From positions 1 to 41,970 of the forward strand of contig JAHWKW010000024.1 of assembly GCA_019347675.1 (NCBI GenBank): a stretch of DNA of 41,970 nt, in the 5' to 3' direction. The notes below the pieces were generated by a model. The model searched no databases. It saw only the letters and a list, made by a program, of their open reading frames with translations, and was not told the origin of the DNA. The translations under genes were made by a program, and so were the position numbers. Shown here piece by piece: positions 3,051-31,477 of this stretch (positions are counted from its first letter, which is position 1; the number at the start of each line of letters is the position of its first letter). The stretch comes from Actinomycetota bacterium. Lineage in GTDB: Bacteria; Actinomycetota; Nitriliruptoria; Nitriliruptorales; JAHWKO01.

Positions 3051-3162
3051 CGCACCGGCCTCCACGCGACCCGCGTCGCCGATGTCACATCCGACGTGCC
3101 TCGGTGAGGACTTCCTGCACGGAGCCAGCATCGGGACACACCAATGCACTGTCGAAGTGAGA

Positions 3163-3182
3163 CGGGCGGCGGGCACCGCCCG
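3163..3182 (+). other. GC-rich hairpin at the relaxase start
   Basis: CGGGCGG at 3163-3169 and CCGCCCG at 3176-3182 form a perfect 7-bp stem with a six-base loop, ending on the GTG start of the relaxase gene. It could limit translation or belong to a transfer origin, since relaxases often lie next to oriT. No nick-site consensus is recognisable, so the role is open. Confidence 0.35.
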
Positions 3183-11341: not shown

Positions 11342-11487
11342 CCTCGCAGACCCGCAACCCCAGCTGCAACACCACGGCCTGTCCGACCGTGCCGCTGCAA
11401 GAGGAACACAGACTGGCACCGGGGGATGCGGCCTCCCGCCGGACGTCGCGCCGGCAGCGCTCCTGGGCCGGTGACGGCCGATGCTGA
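11338..11487 (+). CDS. Tiny Cys-containing ORF between two coupled genes
   Basis: A 49-residue frame whose GTG overlaps the previous stop by four bases and whose TGA overlaps the relaxase ATG by seven. It begins TSQTRNPSCNTTACPTVPL and ends in a basic, Arg-rich tail. Double overlap suggests a translated gene that couples the relaxase to the operon, either as a leader or as a small zinc-binding protein. There is no homology to lean on. Confidence 0.45.
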   Translation: MTSQTRNPSCNTTACPTVPLQEEHRLAPGDAASRRTSRRQRSWAGDGRC

Positions 11488-17271: not shown

Positions 17272-20200
17272 CCTGCGCCTTGATGATCTCGAACAGCTCT
17301 TCAGTGTTGTACTCGGCGTGCTCTTCGCGGCCCATGATGTCGGCGATGGCGCGGTGGACTTCCCGTTCCTTGATGCGGTGTCCGCGCCAGCCGTGATGCT
17401 TGGTGGTGCGGACGGCGTCGTCGATGGCGACGGCAAGCTGCTCGTTGCTGTCGAGGTTGTCGTAGAGGGCGCGTCGGGCAGGGCTGTCGATCGATGCCGG
17501 GTAGGACTCGCCGCCGGGCCGGACGACCTGGCCGGCGATCGTCTCCAGCTCCTTGAGGAACTCCCGGTAGCTCAGCGCACGGCGTCGGCGCTGATCGATG
17601 ACGTTGTCGAGCAAGACCGACATCCGATCGTAGTACTTGGGGTTGACGGGCCGCTCATCGATGATTACCCGTCGGACGTTGTTGACGATCGTCTCCGCAG
17701 ACAGGTCATCGTCGTGGCGGATGCCCTGCGGCAGGGAAGCGATCGCGCCGGCTGTGCCTCGTTCGACGATCAGCTGCACGAGGCCCTGCTCGTCGAAGTC
17801 GGAGAGGACTTCTGAGTCTTCGGCTTCGATGTAGCTGTCGAGCAGGTGCCGCATGTCCGGCTCGTAGACCTTCAGGTCTACGTAGTCGCCGCTGGCGAGC
17901 TTGACCTCACGGCGCACGTTCTCATAGTGCTTGACCTCCTCGGCGATCTCAGCCGTTTCTTGCTGGCTGTAGCCGGCCTCGTCCATCTCGTTGGCGAGAT
18001 CGGCGTAGGCGCGGATGAACGAGCCGACGTGCTTGTAGAGCTTGAGACGCTTGGGCTCGTTGTCCTTCAGCTGCTGCTGGTCGCCGCTGTCGGTCGCACA
18101 GAAGTAGTGCAGGTAGTCGCTAGTGGACGGCCGCTGGCCGACGGGCTCGCACAGTGCCTTCACAGTTTCGCGCGTATCGTTCAGCCTTTCGCGAGCCTGG
18201 TCGAGCCGGTTCTTGACCAAGCCGGCGACGTCTTCGCGGTCGTAGTCCTCGAAGGCCGCCGAGGTGTAGTCGTGGACGGCTGACTCGAGTGACTTGAACA
18301 GGTCCTGGTAGTCGATGATGCAGCCATACTCCTTGTCCTCGCCGTCGAGGCGGTTGACGCGGCAGATGGCCTGGAACAGCCCGTGGTCAGCCATGGGCTT
18401 GTCGATGTAGAGGTAGGTGGCGGGCGGTGCGTCGAAGCCGGTGAGCAACTTGTCGACGACGATCAGCAGTTTCATCTGGCCGGGCTGTTCGATGAACTTC
18501 TGCTTGACGTCGTCCTCGAAGTCCTCGACGCGGCCGGCGGCTTCCTCCTCGCTAATGTCGAAATAGTCGGCGACCATCTTGCGGTAGGTCGCGTACTTCT
18601 CCAGCGCTTCGGTCTCGCCTTCGCCAGTCTCTTCGCCCTTGATCGTGTCGGCGGTCGGCCGGTAGCTGGTCACAATCGCGCACTTCTTCTTCAGCGATGT
18701 GCGGCTGAACGCCTCGTAGAACTTGCAGGCCTCGTAGATGGATGAGCAGACGAGCAGGGCGTTGCCGCGATCGTTCATCAGCCGGTCGCGGGTAGCCATG
18801 TCGAACATGATGTCGGCCACGATCTTGTCGAGACGCGACTGGGCGGTCAGCACCTTCTGCAGCGTTCCCCACCGCCGCTTCAAATCGGCTTTGGCGAGGT
18901 CGGACAGGCCATTGGTCTTCGCGTCGAACCACTTGTCGATCTTGCCGGGTGAGGTTATGCGCTGATCGATGTCGCGTGCTTCGTAGCGGAGGTCGAGGAT
19001 GACGCCGTCCTCGACTGCTTCGTCGAACTTATAGGTGTGGATGTAGGAGCCGAACACCTCGATGCTGCGGGCCTTGTCGTCCTTCAGTAGTGGGGTGCCC
19101 GTGAAGCCTATGAACGTCGCGTCGGGCAGCAGTTGGCGCATGGCGGCGTGCAGCTTGCCGGACTGGGTGCGATGGCACTCGTCGACGAACACGAACAGGT
19201 TGCCGTGGGCCTTGAACCCAGAGGCGACTGCACGTTCGACGGCCTTGGCGTAGTCGTCCTCGTCGCCGGTGCCGGCACCGAACTTATGCACGAGGGTGCA
19301 CAGAAGCCAGTCGGCGCCTTCGCGCAGCTGTTCGATCAGGTCGGCGCCGCTGCTGGTGCGGTAGATCTGTTCGTCGACGCCGTAGAACACCTTCTCGATC
19401 TGCTCGTCGAGCTCTTCGCGGTCGGTGACGATCAGCACGCGGGCGTCTTCGATGTTCTCCCGGATCCACTTGGCGAGCCACACCATGCTCAGGCTCTTCC
19501 CGGAGCCCTGGGTGTGCCACAAGATCCCGCCTTCGCGGTCCTTGACGCGCTGCTGGCCGGCCTTGACGCCGAAGTACTGGTTGTGCCGTGCGATCTTCTT
19601 GGTGCCGGCGTCGAACACGATGAAGTCGTGGATCAACTCAAGCAGCCTCTGCTTGCTGCACAGCTGGCACAGGGCGGCGTCCAGTGGGCTAGCGAGTTCG
19701 GACGGCTCCTTCCACTCGAGCCAGTACTTCTGCGGTGTCTGGATTACCGAGTAGCGCAGACCTTCGGTGTCGTTGCCGGCCATGACAAGCTGCACGGTGG
19801 AGAAGAACGGCTGGATGAACTCGGGCTTTTGGTTGTCGAGCATCTGCCGGATGCCCTCGGTGACCGAGACCGTCGAACGCTTCAGCTCGAGGACGGCGAC
19901 GGCGATGCCGTTGATAGAGAGGACGATGTCGGGGCGCTTGTCGTGCTTGCCAGCGACGGTGACCTCTTCGGCGATGGCGAAGTCGTTGTTCTCGGGGTTG
20001 TGCCAGTCGACGTAGTTGATGTGCTGTGACTGCTGGCCGGCTTCGAGCTGGACGTCGTGCCCGTAGCGCAGCAGGAAGTAGACCTTGCGGTTGGCGTCAT
20101 ACAGGCGGCCGCCGCCGACGGCCGTGGCGCGACGGAGCTCGTGGAGAGCGCGGTTGATCAGTCCGTCTTCGTAGCCCTGCCGGCGGAGCCAGTCGGTGAG

Positions 20201-20332
20201 CCGCGGTTCGATGATGTTGCTGTTGTCGGCGGCGTCCTTGAGGTTGCCGCGGTACGTGTAGTCGAGGTCGTCGCCGAACAGTTCGACGACTCGCTTCTGT
20301 ACGCGGCGTTCGAATTGGCCGACGTCGCTCAT
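17261..20332 (-). CDS. hsdR: Type I restriction enzyme, R subunit
   Basis: 1,023 residues, normal length for HsdR, the ATP-driven translocase and endonuclease of type I systems. The N-terminal nuclease of the PD-(D/E)xK type is visible (RPDIVLSI with Asp135 and LELKR with Glu149 and Lys151). The SF2 motor follows: Walker A LWHTQGSGKS (271-280), FVDECHRTQSGKLH (DECH at 384-387) and FIGFTGTPLL. The C-terminus holds helical spacer and HsdS/M-binding parts. It starts with ATG overlapping the HsdS stop by four bases, so M, S and R are made from one message. Confidence 0.96.
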   Translation of the reverse strand: MSDVGQFERRVQKRVVELFGDDLDYTYRGNLKDAADNSNIIEPRLTDWLRRQGYEDGLINRALHELRRATAVGGGRLYDANRKVYFLLRYGHDVQLEAGQQSQHINYVDWHNPENNDFAIAEEVTVAGKHDKRPDIVLSINGIAVAVLELKRSTVSVTEGIRQMLDNQKPEFIQPFFSTVQLVMAGNDTEGLRYSVIQTPQKYWLEWKEPSELASPLDAALCQLCSKQRLLELIHDFIVFDAGTKKIARHNQYFGVKAGQQRVKDREGGILWHTQGSGKSLSMVWLAKWIRENIEDARVLIVTDREELDEQIEKVFYGVDEQIYRTSSGADLIEQLREGADWLLCTLVHKFGAGTGDEDDYAKAVERAVASGFKAHGNLFVFVDECHRTQSGKLHAAMRQLLPDATFIGFTGTPLLKDDKARSIEVFGSYIHTYKFDEAVEDGVILDLRYEARDIDQRITSPGKIDKWFDAKTNGLSDLAKADLKRRWGTLQKVLTAQSRLDKIVADIMFDMATRDRLMNDRGNALLVCSSIYEACKFYEAFSRTSLKKKCAIVTSYRPTADTIKGEETGEGETEALEKYATYRKMVADYFDISEEEAAGRVEDFEDDVKQKFIEQPGQMKLLIVVDKLLTGFDAPPATYLYIDKPMADHGLFQAICRVNRLDGEDKEYGCIIDYQDLFKSLESAVHDYTSAAFEDYDREDVAGLVKNRLDQARERLNDTRETVKALCEPVGQRPSTSDYLHYFCATDSGDQQQLKDNEPKRLKLYKHVGSFIRAYADLANEMDEAGYSQQETAEIAEEVKHYENVRREVKLASGDYVDLKVYEPDMRHLLDSYIEAEDSEVLSDFDEQGLVQLIVERGTAGAIASLPQGIRHDDDLSAETIVNNVRRVIIDERPVNPKYYDRMSVLLDNVIDQRRRRALSYREFLKELETIAGQVVRPGGESYPASIDSPARRALYDNLDSNEQLAVAIDDAVRTTKHHGWRGHRIKEREVHRAIADIMGREEHAEYNTEELFEIIKAQDEY

Positions 20333-21588
20333 GCCGCTGCCTCCTCGGCCGGTAGGCGAGTGCGGCCGGTGAGGAGCTCCTGCATCATCCCGCGCTTGAC
20401 GTCACGCGTCTTGGCGAGTCGTCGCTCTAGGGCGTTGATCTCGCTATCCATGTCGGTGAGGACCTCGGCAACTGAGTCCTGTTCTTCTCGTGTGGGGAGG
20501 TTGACTTCCAGGCTGCCTAGAGCACGTGCGTTGATGTGGACGACAGCATCGCCTTGACCGAGCCGTGCCTTCTCAGCGGCAACAGCGGGAGTGTTCAGTA
20601 GATGGCTGAGGAACACCGGGTTGTGGTCGCCGCTGGAGGGGCGTAGTACCACCAGGTCCCCGCCAGCGACTGCAGGACCTGAGCCGACATAGGCGAGGCA
20701 GGTGCCGATCTCGTCTGCAGTTTCGCCGGAGGACGTGAAGAGCAGGTCGCCACGCTGGATCGGTAGCGCGGTGTCCGCAACGTCTTGCGGCACGTAGTTG
20801 TTCAGTGAAGCGGTGTAGCTCCTGTACTTGGTGTAGAGCTCGCCGTAGCGTACGCACGGAACTCCTGCGGATGCCACGTCGTCCTTGCGGATGCCACGTC
20901 CCTTCATCCACTGACCAAGCTGATCAAGCCGATATCTGGTCCACTCCGAACGAGGCCGGGTGAGGTTAGACTGTCCAGCGAACAGTCGGCGTAACGCAGC
21001 CGCCTTCACCATCAGATGCTTGTCGATGAGCCGTTCGAGGGATTCGTTCAGTTCGTCGACATCCCGTAGCGCCCCTGCGATTCGCCGCTGCTCGGAAAGC
21101 TGCGGCAGCGGGACTGGAAGCGACGCGTACTCGCGGCTGTTGATGCCCGGCTGTCCGCTTCTCAGTGACATCCCTTCTACCCAGTCCCAGTAGGGCTTCG
21201 ACCTCAAGTACTGGGACAAGAACTCGGGGTCGAGTTTGCGGTCGTCCACCCGCACCTGGATGAGGAAGCCGGCGTACACCAGACGCCCGTCCTGGGGACG
21301 ATGCAGGTATGACTTGCCGACGCTGGCACCCGTTCGCGCCAGCAGAATGTCCCCGTACTCCAGGTAGTAGTCGGAAGCCGAAGGATCGCTAACCGAAACC
21401 TTCGGGGCGGGAACGAACCTGCCTGCGTCATCGATGTCAGTGATTCGGATGTAGGTGGGAAGGTCATGCCGGTAGGGCACCGCGGGTGCGTTGATGCCAT
21501 AGGAGGGTGTCGATACGAGACACTCACCTAGCTCGACGATCGGCCAAGGGCAGCGCTCCAACGTGCTCGAGACTGCGGCGCCGGTCAT
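20329..21588 (-). CDS. hsdS: Type I restriction enzyme, specificity subunit
   Basis: 419 residues with the expected two target-recognition domains. The first runs from about 14 to 165 (YIRITDIDDAGRF, GDILLARTGASVGKS, LPVPLPQLSEQRRIAG), then a conserved helix (DVDELNESLERLIDKHLM); the second from about 215 to 375 (CVRYGELYTKY, GDLLFTSSGETADEIG, LPTREEQDSVAEVL) and a final helix. Each domain reads one half of a split target. It overlaps both neighbours by four bases. Recognition sequence cannot be read from the protein. Confidence 0.95.
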   Translation of the reverse strand: MTGAAVSSTLERCPWPIVELGECLVSTPSYGINAPAVPYRHDLPTYIRITDIDDAGRFVPAPKVSVSDPSASDYYLEYGDILLARTGASVGKSYLHRPQDGRLVYAGFLIQVRVDDRKLDPEFLSQYLRSKPYWDWVEGMSLRSGQPGINSREYASLPVPLPQLSEQRRIAGALRDVDELNESLERLIDKHLMVKAAALRRLFAGQSNLTRPRSEWTRYRLDQLGQWMKGRGIRKDDVASAGVPCVRYGELYTKYRSYTASLNNYVPQDVADTALPIQRGDLLFTSSGETADEIGTCLAYVGSGPAVAGGDLVVLRPSSGDHNPVFLSHLLNTPAVAAEKARLGQGDAVVHINARALGSLEVNLPTREEQDSVAEVLTDMDSEINALERRLAKTRDVKRGMMQELLTGRTRLPAEEAAA

Positions 21589-24128
21589 GACGGTGTCTCC
21601 ACATCCAGCATAGCCAAATGCTTGCTCACACGGGCGGAGATCGACTCCGTCTCGTCGACAAGACTTGGGAGTGTTTCGCTGTAGCGGTCGACCAGCTGTG
21701 CGATACGTCGGCTGATCCGTGAGGCCACAAACCCGATCTCGTCACCGATGGTGGAGCGGAGTGTTCCTATCCACTTGCTCTCTACCATCATCGCGCGGAT
21801 TTCTTCGTCGCTCACGTCGTCGTAGGTAGAGGCGACCTCGTTGAGCAGCATTGCTTCGGCTTCGCGGAGGGTGGCCTTCTCAGACGTCAGTGCGTCGTTC
21901 AGAGCGAGCCACCGGTGGAGGACGTCCAGTTCGGCGAAGTAGCCCTCCCCGTCGTGTACTCCGACGTCCCACGGGCGCGTACCGAACTTGCTCTTCGCGA
22001 TGCCCTTCGCCTGCTGGTACTCCGAGCTGTCCTCTGGGAACGCCTCGAGGATCAGGTCCTTGAGTTCGGCGACTCGGTCCTGCGCGTTGCCCTTCGTCAC
22101 GCCGCTCGAACCCTCAAGGCCGTCGAGAGCCTCCCCTTCGACGGCGTGTTCCTCTTCGAACGCCGCGAGCTCCGCCTCGCTCGCCGCTACCGCTGCTGCC
22201 AGCTCATCGAGGCGCTCTTGGCGGTCGGGGAAGTAGCGACGGATGAGCAGATCAGGCGGCAGGAGGTCAGCCACGTACTTGATCTTCTTCCGGCCCTGCT
22301 TGAGGGAGAAGTCCTCGGTCTCGTTGTCGCGCGCCTCCCTAAGCACCCCGCCCACCTGCCAGCCCTCGGCAGCGATGAGGTAGACGTCGTCCTGCATCTC
22401 GGTGTCCCAGAAGTCCATGAACCGCTGGTAGATGTCGTAGCGACTGATCAGCGGGACGTCGGCGAAGCGGTCGAGTAGGTCATCGGCCAGTTGAATCCGC
22501 AGTTCCTTCGGCGACGTCTCCTCATCGATGGACATCAGCATCTGTCGGTGCGCTTCGTCCCACTCTTCGAACGTCTGATGGACGTTCGTGGCGAACGCCT
22601 GGAACTGAGCGTGCGACTCAACCGTCTGGCGAACCTTGTCGGCATCTACGGCCGGCTGCAGATAGCCGTCGCGACCAGCGGGCTCGAACAGCACGGAACG
22701 CAGGTCAGGCATGACCTGCCAGTATCGGTCGAGGTCGTCGACGTCCCGCCGGGGGATGCCGCCTTGCAGGTGGGCGGTGAGGTCTTGGATGTCCTCGGGT
22801 TCGCTGGAGTCGATGTAGCGGGAGATGTTCAGGTTGTAGTCGTTCACCTCGCTGGCGATCTCCTCCAACGGGACCAGCCGCGAGTAGCCGTCGATCTCTC
22901 GCTGAGTACGGAAGACGTCGACGATCTTATGGATGTCCTGTTCACGGAGCCGGTTCTTGTTGCCGTCCTTGATGTAGCCGCGGCTGGCGTCGATGAGGAA
23001 GACGCCTTCGCGCGTGCCCGCCTCCTTCTTGTCGACGACAAGGATGCAGGCGGGGATGCCGGTGCCGTAGAAGAGGTTGGCCGGCAGACCGATAACGCCC
23101 TTTATCAGGCCGCGCTGAAGCAGGTTGCGGCGGATGACCGCCTCGGCGTTCCCACGGAACAGGACGCCATGCGGGAGGACGACCGCGCCGGTGCCTGTGC
23201 TCTTCAACGACTTGACGATGTGCAGCAGGAAGGCGTAGTCGCCGTTACGGGTGGGAGGGACGCCGTACTCGAACCGGTCGTAGTCGTCGTTCTTGGGGTC
23301 GATGCCGTTCGACCAGGACTTTGTTGAGAACGGAGGATTCGCGACGACGAAGCTGAAGGTCTTCAGTCGGCCGTTCTCGGTGAACTCCGGGGAGGCGATG
23401 GTGTTGCCGTGGCCGATCTCGGCGGTGGGCTGGCCGTGGAGGATCATGTTCATGCGTGCCAGCGCCCAGGTGGCGTGGTCCATCTCCTGGCCGTAGATAG
23501 TGATGCTGCCGCCGGCTTCGTCCCCGGCCTTCACCAGCAGAGAGCCGGACCCGGCTGTGGGGTCGTACACGGTGTCGTCCCGGGTGGTGTGCGGTCCGAT
23601 GCCGATGACCTGGGCGATGATCCGGGAGACCTCGGCGGGGGTGTAGAACTGTCCTTTGCTCTTGCCGGCCTCGGTGGCGAAGTGCCGCATGAGGTACTCG
23701 TAGGCGTCGCCGAGGAGGTCGTCGCCGGCAGCGAGGTTGTCGCTGAAGTCGAGCCGTCGGTGGAAGATGTTGACCAGCGCAGACAGTCGGTCGACCTTGT
23801 CCTTGCCGCTGCCGAGCTTGGCGGAGTCGTTGAAGTCGGCTAGGTCGATGACGCCTTGCAGGTCGTTGGCTTCGGCGAGACAACCGATCGCCTTGTTGAT
23901 CCTGTCGCCGATCTCCTTGTCGCCGACCAGACTGTGGATGTAGTCGAAGGAGCCCTTCTCCGGGACGACGATGAGGCTGTGGGGGTCGGCGGCGTGCTTG
24001 TCGGAGACGTACTTCACGAACAGCAGCGTCAGGACGTAGTCCTTGTACTGGGAGGCGTCCATGCCGCCGCGGAGCTCGTCGCAGCTGTCCCAGATCGACC
24101 GGTACAGCTCGGACTTCTTGATCGCCAT
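21585..24128 (-). CDS. hsdM: Type I restriction enzyme, N6-adenine methylase subunit
   Basis: 847 residues. The N-terminal HsdM helical domain (YVLTLLFVKYVSDK) is followed by the methylase core with SAM motif DPTAGSGSLL (189-198) and catalytic NPPF (264-267). The GQFYTPAEV signature at 159-167 is typical of HsdM. Beyond about residue 480 there is a long extension: a helical part with DEAHRQM and a late coiled coil, making it several hundred residues longer than the classic 500-residue form. Extended HsdM proteins exist in actinobacteria. It is the first gene of the operon; its promoter should lie in 24,129-24,349. Confidence 0.95.
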   Translation of the reverse strand: MAIKKSELYRSIWDSCDELRGGMDASQYKDYVLTLLFVKYVSDKHAADPHSLIVVPEKGSFDYIHSLVGDKEIGDRINKAIGCLAEANDLQGVIDLADFNDSAKLGSGKDKVDRLSALVNIFHRRLDFSDNLAAGDDLLGDAYEYLMRHFATEAGKSKGQFYTPAEVSRIIAQVIGIGPHTTRDDTVYDPTAGSGSLLVKAGDEAGGSITIYGQEMDHATWALARMNMILHGQPTAEIGHGNTIASPEFTENGRLKTFSFVVANPPFSTKSWSNGIDPKNDDYDRFEYGVPPTRNGDYAFLLHIVKSLKSTGTGAVVLPHGVLFRGNAEAVIRRNLLQRGLIKGVIGLPANLFYGTGIPACILVVDKKEAGTREGVFLIDASRGYIKDGNKNRLREQDIHKIVDVFRTQREIDGYSRLVPLEEIASEVNDYNLNISRYIDSSEPEDIQDLTAHLQGGIPRRDVDDLDRYWQVMPDLRSVLFEPAGRDGYLQPAVDADKVRQTVESHAQFQAFATNVHQTFEEWDEAHRQMLMSIDEETSPKELRIQLADDLLDRFADVPLISRYDIYQRFMDFWDTEMQDDVYLIAAEGWQVGGVLREARDNETEDFSLKQGRKKIKYVADLLPPDLLIRRYFPDRQERLDELAAAVAASEAELAAFEEEHAVEGEALDGLEGSSGVTKGNAQDRVAELKDLILEAFPEDSSEYQQAKGIAKSKFGTRPWDVGVHDGEGYFAELDVLHRWLALNDALTSEKATLREAEAMLLNEVASTYDDVSDEEIRAMMVESKWIGTLRSTIGDEIGFVASRISRRIAQLVDRYSETLPSLVDETESISARVSKHLAMLDVETPS

Positions 24129-24349: not shown

Positions 24350-24982
24350 TCACCGGGCCTGCCTCCGTCCAGCTGCCGTCGTCCGTGTCGGCAGACGCCT
24401 CGGCTCGGAGCGCAAGCCGGGAACGTCGATCACGGCGAGGTCGATCTCGAGCTTTCGCAGTTCGCTGACCGCATCCGCGAGCCGCTCCAGGTCGAGGTGG
24501 ATGCGGTCAAGCTCCGAGACGGCGTCATGCGCCCGATCCTGGTGGCTCAGGGCCGGCACCGGAACCTGCAGCTGTGCGAGATCCCGCGAGGCGATGCGCC
24601 GTATCCCCGAACCGCTGGCTCGCACCTCGACCTGATCCCGGAAGTACGACGAGCGAACCCAGAGTCCAAGCCAGTCGGATGTGACTGGACCTCCGGCTAG
24701 CGCACGCAGGACCACGCAGTCGCTACCGACTATCGCGCCACGAAGTTCCTCATCGACCACCCGTGCAGCTGCAGGCCTGAAAGAGACCGCGACAACGATG
24801 TCCCCCGGCTTGAGGTCGTACGCCCACCGCGCCTCGGACTCGGGCAGGTACTCGGCCGGCGCATCGTCGTCCGCCAGGGCCTTGGCGTTCAGGAACCTCG
24901 TCCCGGTATCCCCCAGATGGTCGTAGTTGATCCGAACGCCGCGTGTGATCTCCGCAACGGACTGGAGGGGGAGGCGTCTCAT
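24350..24982 (-). CDS. Half-size HsdS-like specificity protein
   Basis: 210 residues with a single target-recognition domain: SVAEITRGVRINYD, then RFLNAKAL, KPGDIVVAVSFRPAAARVV, ASGSGIRRIASRDLAQLQVP, and a coiled helix (AVSELDRIHLDLERLADAV) that would normally bind the methylase or a second copy. HsdS halves can dimerise to make a symmetric specificity unit. The ATG overlaps the stop of the HTH-methylase by four bases, so the two form a pair. It differs from the full HsdS at 20,329. The C-terminal 40 residues are basic. Confidence 0.82.
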   Translation of the reverse strand: MRRLPLQSVAEITRGVRINYDHLGDTGTRFLNAKALADDDAPAEYLPESEARWAYDLKPGDIVVAVSFRPAAARVVDEELRGAIVGSDCVVLRALAGGPVTSDWLGLWVRSSYFRDQVEVRASGSGIRRIASRDLAQLQVPVPALSHQDRAHDAVSELDRIHLDLERLADAVSELRKLEIDLAVIDVPGLRSEPRRLPTRTTAAGRRQAR

Positions 24983-26550
24983 GTTGAACCTCCCACAACC
25001 TCCTGGAGCATGTCGAGCGCGCGACGAACCTTCGGCAAGTCCTCATCGATGCCGGCCCTCAGTTCGGCGGCACGAGCCCGAAGGTCATCAACGTCGAAGC
25101 TCTGGATCGGGTCTCTACACCGGCTCGGGGTGATGACCGAGTCCTCCAGATCTACTCGCGACAACCGGAAGGCTCGACCCGAGTGCTCCTTGGGGATCGG
25201 GTCCCCGGATCGAGCGAGGTGCACCAAGTCAACGATCATGTCGATCTCACGCTCCCCAAGCTCCGTTTCGTGGCGCCCGGCCGTGCCCAGGTCCGACGCA
25301 TCAACGAGAAGGATCTCCTCTTGGCTCGCTTGTCTCCGTTCGGGAGAACGCAGAAGCCAGATGGTCAACGGGATCGACGTGTTCCGTCGTAGGCGCTCCG
25401 GAAGTTGGATGACACCTTCGATGCAACCATCGTCGAACATCCCGGCCCGGATCTCGCCTTCGCGGCCTCCTGACCAGGTCGACCGCGGCGGCTGGAGAAC
25501 GACCGCTCGGCCTCCAGGGCGGAGCGCATGCAGCGCAGTCTGCAGCCACGCGAAGTCCGCAGAGCTCGGAGGGGGCGCGCCATATGTCCAACGGTCGTCA
25601 AGATAGAGCTCGGCGTCACCCCACTTCCCCACTCCGTATGGCGGATCGAGGAGGACCGTGTCGGCGGACGGCAGGTCTTCGAGCGGTATCCTTAGACTGT
25701 TGTCCACGCGTAGATCCCCATCGACGTCGTAGATGAAAAACCAGGCTCGAGCGTGCCGGATGACGTCCTGGTTGATGTCCACTCCGACAAGAGTCGTCGG
25801 CGGCTCACCCCTCTCCGCGGCGACCGCCGCCATGAGAAGCAACCCGCCGTTGCCTGCGGCAAGGTCCGCGACGGTCTCGCCCAGCGGCTCGGCCAGCCGG
25901 ACCATCAGAAGGGCGAGGTCGTCAGGTGTCGAGTAATCCTGCGCGAAGCGATCTGCACGGTTCATGCGGTCGGTGAACTCATGGAAGAGCTCAACGTCAG
26001 CGGCCTCCTCAGACAACGCTGCGCGCAGCGCGACCAAGAGCTGTCGGACGGCGTGCCCTGGTGCCTCCGTGACCGAGAACCCGTCCACAAGGAGGCCCTG
26101 GAGTGGCGGGTTGCTCTCCTCCAATCGACGTCCGATGGCAACGAGTCGATTCAGCAGCTGCTCGTCGGCAACATCTTGAACTGACTCCCATCGGTCCTCG
26201 TCGGCGATGTTGAGTCGACCCTTCGCCGCGCGCTCACACGCTACGAGGTACACGAGCGCTGACAGCATGAAGTGCCGGAGTTCCTCAGGCGTCCAGCTCC
26301 TGCGGACCACGTCGGCGATCCGCCACAGCACGGCACTCGGTGGGACAGGGCCACTGATCTTGCCGTTCTCGACGAGCCACCGCTCGACCTCGGCGAGTGA
26401 GAAGAGTGCGCCTCCCGCGCTCTGAAGTCTCGGGGGCGGGAAGTCTTCGTGGCGCTTCCGCCAGTTCGACACGGCGGAAGAGCCGACACCAGCAATCTCC
26501 GCGACGTCACTCAGGCTGACGTAGACAGCATCTACGGCATCGCGCGCCAT
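24979..26550 (-). CDS. N6-adenine DNA methylase with N-terminal HTH
   Basis: 523 residues. Residues 10-65 are a helix-turn-helix (VSLSDVAEIAGVGSSAVSNW plus FSLAEVERWLV), about 70-200 a helical linker with EFTDRMNRADRFAQDYSTPD just before the core, then the methylase: motif I is DLAAGNGG (229-236), altered from the usual DPACGSGG, and motif IV is DPPYG (302-306) with LLDPP intact. The altered motif I keeps the glycines and may still bind SAM, but activity is not certain. It is coupled to the NYN gene upstream and the half-HsdS downstream. No R subunit is attached to this pair, so it may methylate for self-marking or act as a sensor. Confidence 0.87.
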   Translation of the reverse strand: MARDAVDAVYVSLSDVAEIAGVGSSAVSNWRKRHEDFPPPRLQSAGGALFSLAEVERWLVENGKISGPVPPSAVLWRIADVVRRSWTPEELRHFMLSALVYLVACERAAKGRLNIADEDRWESVQDVADEQLLNRLVAIGRRLEESNPPLQGLLVDGFSVTEAPGHAVRQLLVALRAALSEEAADVELFHEFTDRMNRADRFAQDYSTPDDLALLMVRLAEPLGETVADLAAGNGGLLLMAAVAAERGEPPTTLVGVDINQDVIRHARAWFFIYDVDGDLRVDNSLRIPLEDLPSADTVLLDPPYGVGKWGDAELYLDDRWTYGAPPPSSADFAWLQTALHALRPGGRAVVLQPPRSTWSGGREGEIRAGMFDDGCIEGVIQLPERLRRNTSIPLTIWLLRSPERRQASQEEILLVDASDLGTAGRHETELGEREIDMIVDLVHLARSGDPIPKEHSGRAFRLSRVDLEDSVITPSRCRDPIQSFDVDDLRARAAELRAGIDEDLPKVRRALDMLQEVVGGST

Positions 26551-27032
26551 CAGGCCACCCTCCCTTCCGCTGCGGGGGCACCCGGGTCGCCATCCAGATG
26601 GAACGGCACGACGCGGTGCGCCGCCATCCTCAACCTCCGCAAGAGACTCTCGGGGGGAGCCCCAACCGCGATCGTCACACAGCGACGCTGGAGGGAGTCA
26701 ACGACGTCGACGAGCAAGCCGTCCCCGGAGGCAACCACAACCTGATCGAAGCGGGACTCCACGCGTTCGCGAAGTGCCACATCGACGAGGGGCAGGTCCG
26801 CACCGGAACTCCCACGCCGGACTATGAGCCGTGCAGACCGCCAGCTCAGGCCCACCGACACACCGATCGCGGGGTTGCACGCGACCACGATGACGTCGTC
26901 TTCGCGTAGGACCCCAAGTTCTCGGTACGCACCCATGCAGCGGGCGACATTGCGACGGGTGGGCGAGTCGGAGCCGAGGAGGTTCTCCACGTCGACCAGG
27001 TGAAGACTTCTGGGAGCAGTTGAAGTATCCAT
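26550..27032 (-). CDS. NYN/PIN-like nuclease-domain protein
   Basis: 160 residues from the ATG at 27030-27032; a longer frame adds 20 residues through the control region. The NYN pattern is present: HLVDVENLLG (Asp14, Asn17), GADLPLVDVALRERV (Asp79), and VVVASGDGLLVDVVDSL (Asp104, Asp109), with beta strands between. NYN domains are PIN-fold metal-dependent ribonucleases. Its end overlaps the methylase start by one base (TGATG). Placed first in the leftward arm of the divergent cluster, it is a candidate effector that cuts RNA when the system is triggered; that role is inference. Confidence 0.8.
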   Translation of the reverse strand: MDTSTAPRSLHLVDVENLLGSDSPTRRNVARCMGAYRELGVLREDDVIVVACNPAIGVSVGLSWRSARLIVRRGSSGADLPLVDVALRERVESRFDQVVVASGDGLLVDVVDSLQRRCVTIAVGAPPESLLRRLRMAAHRVVPFHLDGDPGAPAAEGRVA

Positions 27033-27058
27033 GTCGTGAACAGTACCATGGCAGAGCC

Positions 27059-27103
27059 GTGATGTCACCTCACGCTGCTGAATCAGCCTCACACCATGTG
27101 AGG
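27059..27103. promoter_or_regulatory. Operator-like palindromes in the divergent control region
   Basis: Three related sites: GTGATGTCAC (27,059-27,068), CCTCAC (27,068-27,073), and the palindrome CCTCACACCATGTGAGG (27,087-27,103, 6-bp arms). The two CCTCAC copies are 19 bp apart, close to two helix turns. They lie between the divergent starts at 27,032 and 27,182, so one bound regulator could control both arms. A possible -10, TACTCT, follows at 27,104. Confidence 0.55.
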
Positions 27104-27181
27104 TACTCTATCCAGCGATGTCCCCGCCCCAGGTGTCCGGCGACGTCACAGGGTCAGGGCACGCTGACGAGATGGAGGTTT

Positions 27182-28000
27182 ATGGTGGTCGAGCTCCGCG
27201 GTCGCGAACCGTTACTCGGCGGTGCCACGCTGTTCGGGGCCACCCTCGATCTTTCGGACCTGACGTGGCTGACGCCCTTCGACACGGTGAGCCTCGCTGC
27301 CTACGCGATGCGGTTCTCGGTGCGCGAACGCTCCCTCGACGTCATCGGTCCGTCGGATGACCGCGTCCGGGCCTACGTGGACAACACGCTCCTGGGTGAG
27401 GTGTTGGAGCTTCCTTCAGGCAAGCGTTCTCCTGACGAAGATCCCCTTGTCCCCCTGACGCACCTACGGCGCCCGGACGAGTGGGACGACAGGCTGGAGG
27501 AGTTGTGGCCAGCCGTCCGACGTCGTGTTGGCAACTACGAGGTCTCCCGCGCCCTCTTCGACGTCCTCGGTGAGTTGATCGACAACGCGGTGACCCACGG
27601 CCGGAGCGATGTAGGAACCTTCGTGTGCGTCCAGCACTACACCGGTAGAACTTCACAACTACCACCGGGGATCTGGGCGGGGGTCGCCGATGCCGGTGTG
27701 GGGATCCCGCGGCACCTTCGCGGGAACAGCGAGTACGCGGCGATCGAGGACGACCAAGAGCTGATCCGCCTCGCGAGGCGTCCCTGGGTGACAGGGACAC
27801 GTGACCGTCGCGGTTGGGGCCTCGTCGAGGTCTTCGAGGCCGCCGCCGTGACAGGCGGCGGCGAACTCCTGATCCGGTCTGGTCGCGCCGAGGGGCGCTT
27901 CCTGGTCCGACCCGGACGGCCACCCTGGGCCCGCTATCGAGCCTTGCCTCGAGCGGCGGTGGGAACATCGGTGCACGTGCGGATGGATGAACCTGCTTGA
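27182..28000 (+). CDS. STAS-GHKL ATPase
   Basis: 272 residues from the ATG at 27182 (GTG at 27185 is the alternative, with better spacing from GGAGG). The N-terminus (GATLDLSDLTWLTPFDTVSLA) is STAS-like. The C-terminal half is a GHKL ATPase: N-box LGELIDNAVTHG (Glu131, Asn135), ADAGVGIP (170-176) and RRGWGLVEVF as glycine lid. No phosphoacceptor His or membrane segment is seen, so this resembles anti-sigma-factor-type kinases more than sensor kinases. It leads the rightward arm and is likely co-transcribed with the STAS-wHTH gene. A switch using ATP state and a STAS partner is the natural inference. Confidence 0.85.
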   Translation: MVVELRGREPLLGGATLFGATLDLSDLTWLTPFDTVSLAAYAMRFSVRERSLDVIGPSDDRVRAYVDNTLLGEVLELPSGKRSPDEDPLVPLTHLRRPDEWDDRLEELWPAVRRRVGNYEVSRALFDVLGELIDNAVTHGRSDVGTFVCVQHYTGRTSQLPPGIWAGVADAGVGIPRHLRGNSEYAAIEDDQELIRLARRPWVTGTRDRRGWGLVEVFEAAAVTGGGELLIRSGRAEGRFLVRPGRPPWARYRALPRAAVGTSVHVRMDEPA

Positions 28001-28024
28001 CAAAGCGACTACCTTCGCTACGCT
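27997..28024 (+). promoter_or_regulatory. Promoter before the STAS-wHTH gene
   Basis: TTGACA (27,997-28,002), a 16-bp spacer and TACGCT (28,019-28,024). The first box overlaps the stop of the STAS-GHKL gene, so transcription could also begin here for the STAS-wHTH, GHKL and ubiquitin-like genes. Confidence 0.6.
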
Positions 28025-28064
28025 TTCACATACAGCGATGAAAACGCTGGGAAGGAGGCGGCAG

Positions 28065-28625
28065 GTGCGATACCAGTTGGCAGAGGAGCACGGCCAGTTC
28101 CTCGCCACCAGATCACGGGGCGCCCAAGTGCAGGAAGCGCTGATGGCGGCCCTTCGGGATACCCCCGAGGGCGACCACCTGGTGATCGACTTCGTTGGCG
28201 TCGAGGACGTCACCGTGTCGTTCGTTGATGAGTCACTCGGCGGCCTGCTCGGGAAGCGCAGCAACGATGAGACCTTGAGCGCGCGAGGCATCGCGCTCAC
28301 CGAACTCAACCCTGACTGCAGAGACACACTGGACGCTGTTCTGAAGCGTCGTGAGTCCGCGATGGTCGTGGTTCGCCCTGACACGGACGAGCTGGAGATC
28401 GTCGGAGACCGACGGTGGGGCTGGATGCCCGATACTCTGGCTGCAGCTCGTAGGCTGAAGGAGTTTCGAGCGAACGATCTCGCCGACGAGCTGGCCCTAA
28501 CTCCACAAGCATCGAACAACCGACTACGTCAACTCGTTGCATCCGGGGCCGTGGCACGACAGCGCGTGGTTCCAGAAGGCGGCGGCAAGGAGTTTCAGTA
28601 CCGCATCCAGATCCTCGACGTCTGA
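28065..28625 (+). CDS. STAS-like (DUF4325) protein with C-terminal winged helix
   Basis: 186 residues from the GTG at 28065, with AAGGAGG seven bases upstream; an ATG at 28038 is the alternative. Residues 36-65 (GDHLVIDFVGVEDVTVSFVD) carry the DUF4325 STAS-like pattern, normally found beside GHKL ATPases. Residues 120-186 form a winged helix (FRANDLADELALTPQASNNRL, a wing GGGKEFQYRI). I infer a regulator whose STAS part is bound or modified by the GHKL protein and whose wing binds DNA, perhaps the palindromes at 27,059-27,103. Family call good; DNA target is inference. Confidence 0.85.
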   Translation: MRYQLAEEHGQFLATRSRGAQVQEALMAALRDTPEGDHLVIDFVGVEDVTVSFVDESLGGLLGKRSNDETLSARGIALTELNPDCRDTLDAVLKRRESAMVVVRPDTDELEIVGDRRWGWMPDTLAAARRLKEFRANDLADELALTPQASNNRLRQLVASGAVARQRVVPEGGGKEFQYRIQILDV

Positions 28626-28628
28626 CGT

Positions 28629-28656
28629 CTGTGGGCGGCCTACGGGCCGCCCACAG
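28629..28656 (+). terminator. Strong hairpin after the STAS-wHTH gene
   Basis: CTGTGGGCGGCC and GGCCGCCCACAG form a perfect 12-bp stem with loop TACG, three bases after the stop. No T run follows. It may be a partial terminator or message-stabilising element setting the ratio between regulator and downstream genes. Confidence 0.55.
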
Positions 28657-28675
28657 CTATAGAGAGGTTTCATCG

Positions 28676-29536
28676 GTGACGGTGAACCCGTGGGGAGCGA
28701 AGGTGGGAGTGAGCCTTTCCCCCTCGCCGACCCTCGATGAGTGGGCGCAGTGCGCGAATCGCCTGATCCTGCCTTCATCGATCGGAACCGTCCACGACGA
28801 GATGGACCTCTACTTGTCGGGGCTGCGGTTCCTGCACCCGCTCGATGTGTGTGCGGCCCGACTCACGATCGAACTTGCGTCGCTCGCAAGCGGCCGGGTG
28901 ACTGTTCACGTACCTAGCGACACGGACGTGCACACCTATGGCACGCGGCTCGACCTCTACCAGGATCTGCCCGAGAACGTAGTTCTCACTCGGCCGCCGG
29001 TCCGGATGACGAGACGGAACCACCGCCAGCGCCTGATCGAGCTCACATCCATCCACACCGCTCCCCGCCTGCAGGAGTTCTCGGATCACGTGGCTCAGGT
29101 GGCCGAAGGCATCACTCAAACTCACCGGAGGCTCTTCCGCCACGGGCTGGTGGAGGCCGCCGACAACGTCATCGAACACGCAGCCAGTCCCGTCGGAGCG
29201 CTTGTCTCCGCTCAGCGTTACCGCGGTCGTCTCGAAATCGCCGTCGTCGACGCGGGGCGGGGTGTCCGCGCGTCGCTCCGGAGTCGTCGCAAGTATCAGG
29301 GGCTAACGGAGTTGGAGGCCATAACCGCCGTCCTCGAGAAGGGCGCCACGCGACGCGTTGCATCCGGGGGCGGAGGCATCAGTCACCTCATCGAACTCGT
29401 CGAGCGCCATCGCGACGCCTCCATCGAACTGGCCTCCGGCGCTGTGGTCGGACGGATCTCTGGATCGAGAACACCGACATATCGAAGCCCCACGGCTCCG
29501 ATCCCGGGGACGTGGTTCACGCTCACCCTGAGGTGA
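28676..29536 (+). CDS. Second GHKL ATPase
   Basis: 286 residues from the GTG at 28676, which has AGAGAGG upstream; GTG at 28631 lies inside the hairpin and is unlikely. The N-terminal part (LPSSIGTVHDEMDLYLSGLRF and a beta/alpha stretch) looks STAS-like or a degenerate sensor. The ATPase has RHGLVEAADNVIEH (Glu160, Asn164), VVDAGRGVRA (191-199) and SGGGGISHLIELV as lid. It is unlike the first GHKL protein, so the locus has two distinct ATPases. No membrane segment. It is 13 bases upstream of the ubiquitin-like gene, so the two are probably co-translated. Confidence 0.82.
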   Translation: MTVNPWGAKVGVSLSPSPTLDEWAQCANRLILPSSIGTVHDEMDLYLSGLRFLHPLDVCAARLTIELASLASGRVTVHVPSDTDVHTYGTRLDLYQDLPENVVLTRPPVRMTRRNHRQRLIELTSIHTAPRLQEFSDHVAQVAEGITQTHRRLFRHGLVEAADNVIEHAASPVGALVSAQRYRGRLEIAVVDAGRGVRASLRSRRKYQGLTELEAITAVLEKGATRRVASGGGGISHLIELVERHRDASIELASGAVVGRISGSRTPTYRSPTAPIPGTWFTLTLR

Positions 29537-29549
29537 GGAGGAGCATCCC

Positions 29550-29780
29550 ATGAAAACGAAGACCGTCATCAACATCTTCATCAACGAAGCACACTTCAAG
29601 GTCGACAGCGACTCCGCGACGGGCCGGGAACTGAAGGAACTCGCGGGCATCCCCGCTTCGAACCTGCTCTTCCGTGACCTCCCAGGTCAGCAGGAGGATC
29701 CGCCGGTCCCGGACGACGAACCAGTCCCGCTCAAGAGCGGCGACCGGTTCTACGACATGCCGCAAGGCAACTTCGGCTGA
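29550..29780 (+). CDS. Ubiquitin-like protein (multiubiquitin-type domain)
   Basis: 76 residues, the length of ubiquitin, with a strong AGGAGG ribosome site. The beta-grasp pattern is clear: strand TVINIFINEAHFKVD, helix-forming ATGRELKELAGIPASN, strand LLFRDLPG, then PVPDDEPVPLKSGDRFYDMP. These match the bacterial multiubiquitin-type family, here as one domain. It ends in PQGNFG with a bare C-terminal Gly, so it could be activated by an E1 without prior trimming. The next genes are E2-like and JAB-E1, in order, supporting a conjugation role. Targets unknown. Confidence 0.88.
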   Translation: MKTKTVINIFINEAHFKVDSDSATGRELKELAGIPASNLLFRDLPGQQEDPPVPDDEPVPLKSGDRFYDMPQGNFG

Positions 29781-29783
29781 CCG

Positions 29784-30155
29784 ATGCGTTCACTGGAGGC
29801 GGAACTCGAGGCGCTCCGAGGCGTCTTCCCCGGCGCGCACATCGAGACCGTGGCCGGTATCGGACGGGTGTGCGTCGTTCCAGACGTCGCTACTGGCAAG
29901 GCTTGGGAACCACCCACGACCGAAATCCGCTTCCTCATCGCGCAGGGTTATCCGCAGAGCAAACCGGACTGCTTCTTCTCGCGGCCAGACTTGCGCTTGA
30001 AGTCGGGGGCTACACCCCAGAACGCTCGTCCGCAACGCATCGGATCCAGCGAGTACTTGTGGTTCTCATGGCATCTGAGAACGTGGAACCCGGCCGCCGA
30101 TGACCTTACCCGATTCGCACGCTTCTGCAACGGACGCCTCCAGATGGACCGATGA
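29784..30155 (+). CDS. E2-fold protein (prokaryotic E2 family E type)
   Basis: 123 residues, three bases after the ubiquitin-like stop. The pattern fits bacterial E2 family E proteins found beside E1 and JAB genes: an N-terminal helix (LEAELEALRGVFPG), a beta sheet ending FLIAQGYPQSKPDCFF, then SEYLWFSWHLRTWNPAADDL, where WNPAADDL aligns with the WSPA helix of E2 enzymes. Cysteines are at 30, 63 and 115; none is where the E2 catalytic Cys should be, between the GYP region and the WNP motif. His97 in FSWH is a candidate functional residue. It may pass the modifier by another route or only scaffold. Confidence 0.8.
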   Translation: MRSLEAELEALRGVFPGAHIETVAGIGRVCVVPDVATGKAWEPPTTEIRFLIAQGYPQSKPDCFFSRPDLRLKSGATPQNARPQRIGSSEYLWFSWHLRTWNPAADDLTRFARFCNGRLQMDR

Positions 30156-31477
30156 CTGCACTGAGCTATCCCCCCGGCACGTGGCGAGAGATCCAAGAGG
30201 ATCTCCTGTCCACCCCGGAGCTTGAGCGCGCCGCCGTCGGATTCGCCGGCCACGTAACGTCCTCTCGTGGCACCCGATTGCTGCTTCGCGACTGGTCGCC
30301 CGTCCCGCTTGACGAGTACCTCGTTCAACTGGGAACTCACCTCGAGGTAAGTCCTCGGTTCTGGACTCGGGCAGCGAAACGGGCGCGGAACTCTGGTGAG
30401 TGCATCGTCATCATGCACAGCCACCCGAGAGCGCAAGGCACGCCCCAGTTCTCAGCATCCGACCTGGGCGGGGAACGGCTGCTGGTTCCCCGTCTCCAAG
30501 CCAGGGCCACGGTGCACGTGGCAACGGTCGTCATCGGACCGGACGGAGCCCAGGCATCACACTACGCACCGAACTCAAAGCAACGACGCCCGCTGGCGCT
30601 CAGGCCCGTGGGGACATTCGAACCAGACGGGGATTCCAGGGGAGGAACCGACGGTCAGGATGCCCGGCAAGTCTTGGCTCTCGGAGCAGCCGGCAACGCA
30701 GTCCTAAGGGACCTCGTCGTCGGGGTCGTGGGCCTGGGCGGTCTGGGCTCTCACGTGTCCACCCAGCTCTCACATCTCGGCGTGCGACGCATAGTCGGAG
30801 TCGACTTCGACCGTGTGGAGCCGTCCAACCTGTCGCGCCTCGTCGGGAGCCGTCGACGAGATGCGCTCCTGAGACGCCGCAAGACAGCGGTTGGACACAG
30901 GGTCGCACGCCGTCTCGGTGCGGGGTTCAAGCCCATCAACGGCCGCGTTGAGGATCCGGCCGTCGCGCGGGAGCTGTTGGAGTGCGACGTCGTGGTGGGG
31001 TGTACCGACAACCAGTCAAGCCGCGCGGTCCTGAACCGACTCGCCCTGCAGTTCTACGTTCCTGTTCTGGACCTGGGTGTTCAGATACGTCCGGGCGGGT
31101 CGTCGGGTGGCCGGGCAACTTGGCTCTTGCCCGACAGCCCCTGCGAGTGGTGTCGCGGCATCCTCGATCCTGACGTTGTGAGGGCGGAGCAGCTACCCGC
31201 CCATCTCCGCGAGGTAGAGCTCGAGCGGGGATACATCGCCGACATGCCCGTCGATCAGCCAGCGGTCGTCAGCGTAAACGGCGTCGTCGCAAGTCTGGGA
31301 GTTACCGAGCTAGTAGCCCGTTGCACAACAGCGCTCGGTGACAACCGCGGTGAGATGCTCGTCTACCGCCTTGGCGACGGGACCGTCCGACGTGTGGGCG
31401 CGGCTTCTCGTCGCGACTGCGCTACCTGTAACCCATCAGGCAACCTAGGTGCCGGGGATCTTGTCGAGCTTCTCTAG
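30152..31477 (+). CDS. JAB-E1 fusion: isopeptidase and activating enzyme
   Basis: 441 residues, coupled to the E2-like gene by ATGA. The N-terminal JAB/MPN metalloprotease (about 1-150) has the JAMM motif HSHP (89-92) with Ser101 and Asp104, spaced two residues wider than the standard form, and Glu25 as probable catalytic acid. The ThiF/E1 domain (about 180-430) has GVVGLGGLGSH (191-201), the Asp218/Asp220, Asn226 and Arg229 adenylation cluster, GCTDNQSSR (283-291), and zinc Cys pairs 331/334 and 423/426. The fusion would charge and remove the same modifier. No convincing separate E1 catalytic Cys loop is apparent. E1-JAB fusions occur in bacterial ubiquitin-like operons. Confidence 0.92.
   Translation: MTALSYPPGTWREIQEDLLSTPELERAAVGFAGHVTSSRGTRLLLRDWSPVPLDEYLVQLGTHLEVSPRFWTRAAKRARNSGECIVIMHSHPRAQGTPQFSASDLGGERLLVPRLQARATVHVATVVIGPDGAQASHYAPNSKQRRPLALRPVGTFEPDGDSRGGTDGQDARQVLALGAAGNAVLRDLVVGVVGLGGLGSHVSTQLSHLGVRRIVGVDFDRVEPSNLSRLVGSRRRDALLRRRKTAVGHRVARRLGAGFKPINGRVEDPAVARELLECDVVVGCTDNQSSRAVLNRLALQFYVPVLDLGVQIRPGGSSGGRATWLLPDSPCEWCRGILDPDVVRAEQLPAHLREVELERGYIADMPVDQPAVVSVNGVVASLGVTELVARCTTALGDNRGEMLVYRLGDGTVRRVGAASRRDCATCNPSGNLGAGDLVELL

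Follow-up and report, generated by a model that had tools for sequence, protein, structure and literature searches.

The nine genes at positions 24350 to 31477 of the window, the whole 41,970-bp contig that we analysed, probably represent two adjacent defence units in a common cargo space and not one system. On the right, a Bub-type ubiquitin-like conjugation operon would be controlled by a kinase/repressor pair resembling CapK and CapS; on the left, a separately controlled cassette would comprise NYN, methylase/half-HsdS and type I restriction-modification (R-M) genes. All nine genes listed in an earlier note on this DNA were confirmed by ORF calls and Pfam matches. The features are the following:

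17261-20332, minus strand: HsdR, type I restriction subunit (ORF; tblastn match behind NYN-methylase in plasmid cassettes L083 and L084)
20329-21588, minus strand: HsdS, specificity subunit (ORF; comparison with relatives)
21585-24128, minus strand: HsdM, type I methylase subunit (ORF; comparison with relatives)
24350-24982, minus strand: half-length HsdS with one target-recognition half (weak Pfam match; PADLOC Specificity_I, 2e-13)
24979-26550, minus strand: HTH and N6-adenine DNA methylase (Pfam N6_Mtase, 3.6e-41; HTH_17 weak, N-terminal)
26550-27032, minus strand: putative NYN (PIN-like) nuclease (sub-threshold Pfam NYN; relatives)
27087-27103, unstranded: small palindrome CCTCACA-N3-TGTGAGG, unlike the CapS-type site (sequence)
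27182-28000, plus strand: GHKL1, CapK-like STAS-GHKL kinase without N-terminal HTH (comparison with relatives; start call)
28022-28045, unstranded: predicted CapS operator 1, at the capK-capS junction (2 mismatches; PWM score 16.6 bits, second highest in the window)
28038-28625, plus strand: CapS-like STAS-wHTH repressor (DUF4325; profile against CapS structures; conserved Ser)
28629-28656, plus strand: perfect hairpin with a 12-nt stem, possible terminator, no T-run (sequence)
28666-28689, unstranded: predicted CapS operator 2, before GHKL2-Bub in the capS-GHKL2 gap (1 mismatch; PWM score 21.6 bits, the highest in the window)
28676-29536 (start uncertain, 28676-28709), plus strand: GHKL2, second CapK-like STAS-GHKL protein (relatives; model; start call)
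29550-29780, plus strand: BubA-like single ubiquitin-like protein (Ubl), C-terminus ...GNFG (Pfam Multi_ubiq)
29784-30155, plus strand: BubB-like E2, Prok-E2_E (Pfam; match to BubB)
30152-31477, plus strand: BubCD-like JAB-E1 fusion with JAMM-type HSHP...SASD and GLGGLG (Pfam; match to BubCD)

Pfam matches above the cut-off were obtained for N6_Mtase (142 bits), ThiF (92 bits), DUF4325 STAS (25.7, cut-off 23), Multi_ubiq (27.2, cut-off 24.5) and Prok-E2_E (34.8, cut-off 25). Those of Methylase_S (17.2, cut-off 22), NYN (19.2, cut-off 24.2), Prok-JAB (20.7, cut-off 25) and HATPase_c (18.6 and 21.5, cut-off 26.4) fell below it, and these assignments were strengthened through comparison with relatives. 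The likely starts are 27032 for NYN, 27182 for GHKL1, 28038 for STAS-wHTH (previously placed at 28065) and 28676 or later for GHKL2. The region between the divergent NYN and GHKL1 starts measures 149 bp, as the note had said to within a base. The rightward arm is looser than the tight linkage it described: GHKL1 lies 37 bp from STAS-wHTH, which in turn lies at least 50 bp from GHKL2, and the hairpin and an operator-like site are in this second gap. Between 26900 and 29000, neither a sigma-70 promoter nor a T-tailed terminator pattern turned up. Transfer genes do flank the cargo; the element, which had been called an ICE, is an ICE or a plasmid, the two being indistinguishable from one whole contig.

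CapK and CapS are described in the main text of Chambers et al. (EMBO J 2026, June; PMC13373217) as a kinase/repressor pair that neighbours Bub (ubiquitin-like) operons, CBASS and R-M systems and acts by phosphorylation-driven de-repression upon DNA damage. A Bub operon follows 231 of its 443 capK loci, and an R-M system stands immediately upstream of 88, so that the combination of Ubl/E2/E1/JAB genes with GHKL and STAS proteins, once thought possibly new, was already published. Judging by sequence, GHKL1 and the STAS-wHTH protein match CapK and CapS. The kinase gene stands directly 5' of the STAS-wHTH gene, as CapKS requires, and a CapS profile of 7 rows, with the window protein at its head, matched the CapS structures 9z71 and 9z72 at 7e-11 and 2e-10. 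The phospho-acceptor CapS Ser54 (codon 28218-28220 in the window) is conserved in 23/23 aligned CapS rows, and the kinase active-site Asn218 in 21/21 aligned CapK rows, GHKL1 and GHKL2 included. A search of PDB sequences with the CapK profile gave no match at E 0.01.

The GHKL1 protein starts with its STAS-like part, and since the N-terminal HTH is absent we file the pair as a CapKS-like variant and not as a strict member; deleting this HTH from CapK was without effect (PMC13373217). CapK Trp68, which contacts ssDNA and is needed for ssDNA activation (PMC13373217), corresponds to Pro in GHKL1 and Gly in GHKL2, and none of the 21 aligned CapK rows has Trp at this position, where the alignment is weak. 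With this residue missing, what such switches sense becomes directly testable. The position of CapS Asn145, a predicted DNA contact (PMC13373217), is Ala in the window and Asn in 18 of 23 rows.

Behind the pair, Ubl, E2 and JAB-E1 are encoded in a single operon, and their homologues include named Bub proteins. The window E2 and JAB-E1 matched solved Citrobacter BubB and BubCD (PDB 9eae and 9ea4) at 2.3e-4 and 5.6e-27, aligning over 98 and 364 residues, while the Ubl is linked through Multi_ubiq; the JAMM-type motif and a multiubiquitin-family Ubl are common to both. The window E1 has the CxxC pairs CEWC and CATC, and CEWC is absent from the aligned Citrobacter chain. The Citrobacter plasmid locus L090 has a single multiubiquitin gene (362 aa), then ThiF, then a DUF6527 gene, whereas the window has Ubl and E2 in separate genes and, after the operon, a transfer gene on the opposite strand. 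L090 and L091 both carry the E. roggenkampii CapS accession of PMC13373217, WP_001567865, before multiubiquitin-ThiF genes. In L090 the R-M genes are co-directional with capKS, with a transposase between them; in the window the R-M unit is adjacent but divergent.

A CapS scan gave 17 loci of an actinobacterial CapKS-like clade, and 15 of them (L081 counted on weak matches) had a Ubl/JAB/E1 or CBASS (CD-NTase) operon, compared with 0/18 other CapS loci used as a control for Ubl/E1/JAB or CD-NTase operons. This clade beside Ubl/JAB/E1 or CBASS operons is new here, and its layout sets the same switch over both kinds of operon; a freshly described immune-operon switch is thereby extended to Actinomycetota, with a predicted operator open to testing. 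In those 15 loci the pair and the immune operon are divergently oriented, and in the window they run in one direction, so the set offers few close parallels to the window layout. Relatives of the STAS-wHTH protein and of the E1 were absent from the viral scans, and no phage record matched STAS-wHTH.

From the actinobacterial scan loci we derived the predicted CapS operator GGTTTCA-N10-TGAAACC, also new here for actinobacterial CapS. With a matrix (PWM) learned outside the window, the third-best window position, after predicted operators 2 and 1, scored 5.5 bits; 60 random windows gave a best score of 16.7 bits and second-best scores of at most 6.0. The 16.6-bit site alone is no better than the best of these random windows, and the strength of the evidence for these predicted operators comes from the scores and places of the two sites taken jointly. 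By match counting alone, two matches were also seen in 4/100 shuffled windows, and the 28666 match had been noticed by eye before the count. In the 149-bp divergent region no CapS-type site was found (best score -17.8 bits). Given the two best predicted operators at the capK-capS junction and in the capS-GHKL2 gap, and none in the divergent region, CapS should act on its own gene and the Bub arm rather than on the left arm.

We thus propose that CapS dimers would repress capS itself as well as the GHKL2-BubA-BubB-BubCD operon via the two predicted operators, with phosphorylation releasing the operon for conjugation to putative targets, and that the left cassette would be under control separate from CapS. 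Published CapKS-Bub loci (PMC13373217) share with the window a STAS-GHKL kinase, a STAS-wHTH repressor with the conserved Ser and a Bub operon next, operator positions at capS and before Bub (predicted in the window), half-sites 10 bp apart in a wide palindrome, and an R-M system alongside. The window differs in being actinobacterial, in its HTH-less kinase without Trp68, in its half-site (TTTCA, not the published TTAA), in an extra CapK-like gene and in R-M genes that are divergent, not upstream on the same strand. Counting against our explanation are the absent HTH, the changes of Trp68 to Pro/Gly and Asn145 to Ala, the TTTCA half-site and a predicted junction site of the wide rather than the narrow kind.

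One could argue instead that the GHKL/STAS switch runs both arms from the 149-bp region as one composite system, with NYN as the effector of the ubiquitin-like arm. The head-to-head arms, the 7-bp-armed palindrome in the divergent region and the 88 published capKS loci directly downstream of R-M would fit such a system, as would the CapS-type site that 16/18 actinobacterial relatives carry before the kinase gene, in the region common to the divergent operon. In the window that region lacks such a site, and the NYN survey also speaks against it: in all 8 plasmid NYN loci inspected, CapK, CapS and a window-type E1 were absent, and neither the 17 loci of the CapS scan nor 10 inspected loci that have a window-type E1 gave an NYN match. 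We consider the composite system improbable. In the inspected loci the arms occur independently as a rule (the NYN-methylase unit was without the other arm in 5/5 loci, and likewise NYN in 3 further loci), so the single nine-gene block of the earlier note is not supported. Its proposed control over the conjugation operon agrees with published CapK/CapS and the two predicted sites; control over NYN, and of both arms from one region, does not.

Regarding the left arm as a separate unit, a methylase adjoins NYN in five of the eight inspected loci and type I R-M genes lie behind in three. Like the window, the actinobacterial plasmid cassettes L083, L084 and L086 have NYN, N6-methylase and then hsdM-hsdS in one direction; hsdR is also behind in L083 and L084, and L086 gave a weak HsdR match (1.2e-4). 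The methylase of L083 has a specificity half fused to it, whereas in the window that half has a gene of its own. L087 was discarded as a split-methylase locus because its genes gave no match to the window methylase. On this comparison, the type I genes at 17261-24128, previously taken as mere neighbours, belong with the NYN-methylase-half-HsdS arm. The closeness of this R-M unit to the switch could be functional, by analogy with published R-M/CapKS/immune sandwiches (PMC13373217). We found no account of an NYN and type I R-M unit in the open-access literature or in the main text of PMC13373217.

In alignment with relatives, the NYN protein keeps the stretches DVEN, GAD and SGDG, which we take to be the NYN active-site motifs. 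A VapKSC-like toxin-antitoxin, in which the NYN (PIN-like) toxin would be bound by the STAS protein and freed upon phosphorylation, would suit these stretches and the HTH-less GHKL1. VapK also lacks the HTH, and one operon holds VapC, a PIN nuclease, together with a STAS antitoxin lacking a wHTH (PMC13373217). The window STAS protein has a full wHTH beside operator-like sites, and the NYN gene is on the opposite strand, in another unit, with methylase neighbours in 5/8 NYN loci and a CapS-like gene in 0/8; we regard this reading as very improbable and rejected a VapKSC identity. An identity with MADS was also discarded: PADLOC matched the window HTH (mad1-like), methylase (mad2-like) and S subunit (mad5-like), but mad2 and mad5 scored 10.5 and 23.8 bits, far under the NCBIfam cut-offs of 720 and 400, and no further MADS family was among the matches listed for the nine proteins.

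Under our preferred reading of a CapKS-like controlled Bub operon, GHKL2 is the first gene behind predicted operator 2, and de-repression would raise the kinase level, suggesting a feed-forward latch, or add a second input. Of the 38 loci in which CapK was matched, the window alone has two CapK-like kinases, making it a natural two-kinase version of the switch. A second CapK-like kinase behind a predicted operator is new here; no mention of one was found in the open-access literature or in the main text of PMC13373217, whose datasets may list actinobacterial loci. More speculatively, and with perhaps one chance in a few, an actinobacterial clade devoid of the ssDNA-stacking residue would respond to a different signal, and in the window the repressor's control of a second kinase would give a self-sustaining latch that keeps the Bub-type operon on once triggered. 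An alternative, short of an even chance, is that GHKL2 does not amplify but senses another signal, or is an ATPase damping the switch by keeping CapS unphosphorylated. GHKL1 and GHKL2 are 27% identical over 183 aa and did not group in the kinase tree (8% of 200 bootstrap trees put them on one side of a branch, counting against grouped rows only), and GHKL2 lacks the RGxG box Arg. Its kinase Asn and G boxes are kept, its place behind predicted operator 2 favours feedback, and the long branches of the tree are compatible with one origin of both proteins. GHKL2 had one weak match in 65 other genomes of the class (G398, 6.5e-4) and one among plasmid records, a Janibacter CapK. Its predicted structure (pLDDT 76.5) gave one Foldseek match below 0.001, the response regulator LvrC; the best 50 were otherwise mostly Hsp90, GyrB and histidine-kinase chains with low TM-scores, so that the model agrees with a GHKL fold and adds little.

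All nine genes that the earlier note had read as one composite system were found as open reading frames, and their families were supported, some of them weakly by Pfam. The window takes in the whole of a 41,970-bp contig from a draft genome, and the likely start codons of NYN (27032), GHKL1 (27182) and STAS-wHTH (28038) leave an intergenic divergent region of 149 bp. The tight gene linkage claimed for the locus did not hold for the rightward arm, which is no single tight chain: a hairpin and an operator-like site part STAS-wHTH from GHKL2. The elements discussed below are:

27033-27181, divergent region between NYN (-) and GHKL1 (+)
27182-28000, (+), GHKL1, STAS-GHKL kinase
28022-28045, first predicted operator
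28038-28625, (+), STAS-wHTH
28629-28656, perfect 12-nt hairpin (fold z = -4.4 for 28610-28700)
28666-28689, second predicted operator

The transfer genes include two TrwC/TraI-family relaxase-helicases, at 3082-6903 and 11481-14705 on the same element, and a type IV coupling protein; the relaxase domain is weak in the first (27.5 vs 295.5 bits).

A GHKL/STAS pair has been named CapK and CapS (PMC13373217). The main text of that paper reports capS after every one of 443 capK genes, immune operons downstream of 348 of them (231 Bub, 75 CBASS and 5 Bil) and R-M systems immediately upstream of 88 of the capK loci. It describes CapS as a repressor whose dimer dissociates when ssDNA-activated CapK phosphorylates it. 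Judged by sequence, the window proteins fit this pair. The profile headed by the window CapS matches the deposited CapS structures (9z71 and 9z72), the phospho-acceptor Ser is kept in 23/23 aligned CapS rows and the kinase Asn in 21/21 CapK rows, while the conjugation genes match the solved Citrobacter BubCD and BubB. In 37 of 40 loci, window included, the CapS-like match adjoins a separate STAS-GHKL kinase gene; the exceptions are a fusion (L064) and two loci without a kinase match (L049 and L068), and one 3.7-kb contig (L076) fell under the length limit for this count. In the L064 protein (401-1690), GHKL kinase and STAS domain are joined in a single chain. Two enterobacterial plasmids (L090 and L091) carry the published CapS accession ahead of multiubiquitin and ThiF genes, and L090 has a type I restriction gene upstream of CapKS, with a transposase in between.

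Two features set GHKL1 apart from the published kinase: it lacks the HTH, and Trp68, which according to the main text CapK needs for ssDNA activation, is replaced by Pro. The alignment is weak at this position, where our set shows Pro in 18 of 21 rows and Trp in none. GHKL2, the second STAS-GHKL protein, keeps the kinase Asn and the G boxes. Among the 38 loci with a CapK-like match (window included; L090 and L091 carry an identical protein), only the window has two such proteins. They do not group in a tree, a result made unsure by long branches.

STAS-wHTH relatives were detected in 36 of 396 genomes of the phylum, 33 of them in family f15, and Prok-E2_E in 3/396; regions were fetched around 20 of the 37 places with relatives. 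Scanning genome contigs with the STAS-wHTH alignment gave 96 pattern matches, leading to 17 loci, which are no unbiased census because the patterns favour one sub-type. In 15 of the 17, the kinase gene has beside it, on the opposite strand, an operon of the Ubl/E1, JAB/E1 or CD-NTase (CBASS) kind:

L065, L070, L073, L077, L079, L080: DUF6791-ThiF operon preceded by a small gene (Multi_ubiq in L065, the one scanned)
L075, and L081 by weak matches only: JAB gene and E1-like gene
L078: Ubl, JAB, E1 set resembling that of the Janibacter plasmid
L066, L067, L069, L071, L072, L074: CBASS operon

Of the remaining two, one is the 3.7-kb contig; the other, L068, shows by eye no more than a kinase remnant and transposase-like genes. 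The divergent layout also appears in the Janibacter plasmid (L007) and in L051, with the Ubl and E2 genes of both recognised by eye; the L007 E2 gave no Pfam match. As a control, 13 queries found E1, JAB or CD-NTase matches in 0/18 other CapS loci (17 f15 loci with a chromosomal-looking pair, plus L049). CapKS was present in 2 of 10 inspected loci with the window-type E1 (L008-L014 and L090-L092). Bub-type operons without CapKS (L008, L009, L011 and L092) adjoin toxin-antitoxin or Xre-type regulator genes, and in L011 also a type I R-M system. In L051 (7245-18530), a CD-NTase and an E2-like gene diverge from CapKS, and a Ubl-E2-JAB-E1-like operon follows about 5 kb further. The f15 pair (L045-L063, minus L049 and L051) looks chromosomal, and in several of these loci, read by eye, its neighbours are a sigma-factor-like gene and another, conserved gene of 180-200 aa.

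From sequences upstream of the relatives' kinase gene we derived a candidate CapS operator, GGTTTCA-N10-TGAAACC. It was counted in 18 accessory loci, made up of 16 of the 17 scan loci (L076 left out) plus L007 and L051. With up to three mismatches allowed, 16 of the 18 carry a match close to the start of the kinase gene (the exceptions are L051 and L068), and 13 carry one at the kinase-capS junction; block-shuffled loci gave 15 matches in 1.02 Mb. In L067, L075 and L081 the first site falls inside the called kinase ORF, a call that is probably too long. Since the pattern stems from the accessory loci, these counts are not independent evidence, and the window provides the independent test, although its match at 28666 was noticed by eye before testing. 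It contains exactly two matches, the first predicted operator with two mismatches and the second with one, against 0.40 expected; 4 of 100 shuffled windows reached two. With a matrix built from 28 sites outside the window, the second and first sites ranked highest (21.6 and 16.6 bits; third, 5.5), and in 60 random windows the best score was 16.7 bits and no second-best score exceeded 6.0. The NYN/CapK divergent region has no CapS-type site (best matrix score -17.8 bits). Published CapS, according to the main text, binds before capS and before the downstream operon (PMC13373217); the predicted sites share these positions and the 10-bp spacing of the wide palindrome, but the half-site is different. 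Operator-like sites were also seen at the capS start in f15 loci L045, L046, L054 and L057.

Most likely, CapS would repress its own gene and GHKL2-Bub, and a kinase signal would relieve this repression; GHKL2, produced upon de-repression, could amplify the signal or supply extra input. The gene combination, which had been proposed as possibly new, is already published, with CapK/CapS beside Bub and R-M nearby in the main text of PMC13373217. What is new is the variant: two kinases, a predicted actinobacterial operator and absence of the ssDNA residue. Words starting with Actino, Streptomyces or divergent are absent from that main text, and as far as it and literature searches go, the divergent actinobacterial clade is undescribed.

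Relatives of the leftward NYN gene were found on 15 plasmid records, and we inspected 8. An N6-methylase lies immediately downstream in five (L082-L086), three of which have type I R-M genes behind the pair (M, S and R in L083 and L084; M, S and a weak R match in L086), while CapK, CapS and the window-type E1 were found in none of the eight. Given these loci, NYN-methylase-half-S-hsdMSR reads as a single leftward unit, independent of Bub. The specificity half is a separate gene in the window but the C-terminal part of the methylase in L083. Shared control of the R-M unit and the right arm is not supported here. The unit may nevertheless cooperate in defence, because restriction causes DNA damage, and such damage has been proposed, in the main text, for R-M/CapKS/immune operon sandwiches (PMC13373217). 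A palindrome, CCTCACA-N3-TGTGAGG, lies at 27087-27103 within the divergent region, and other short palindromes precede NYN in L082, L084 and L086; perhaps they serve the methylase HTH.
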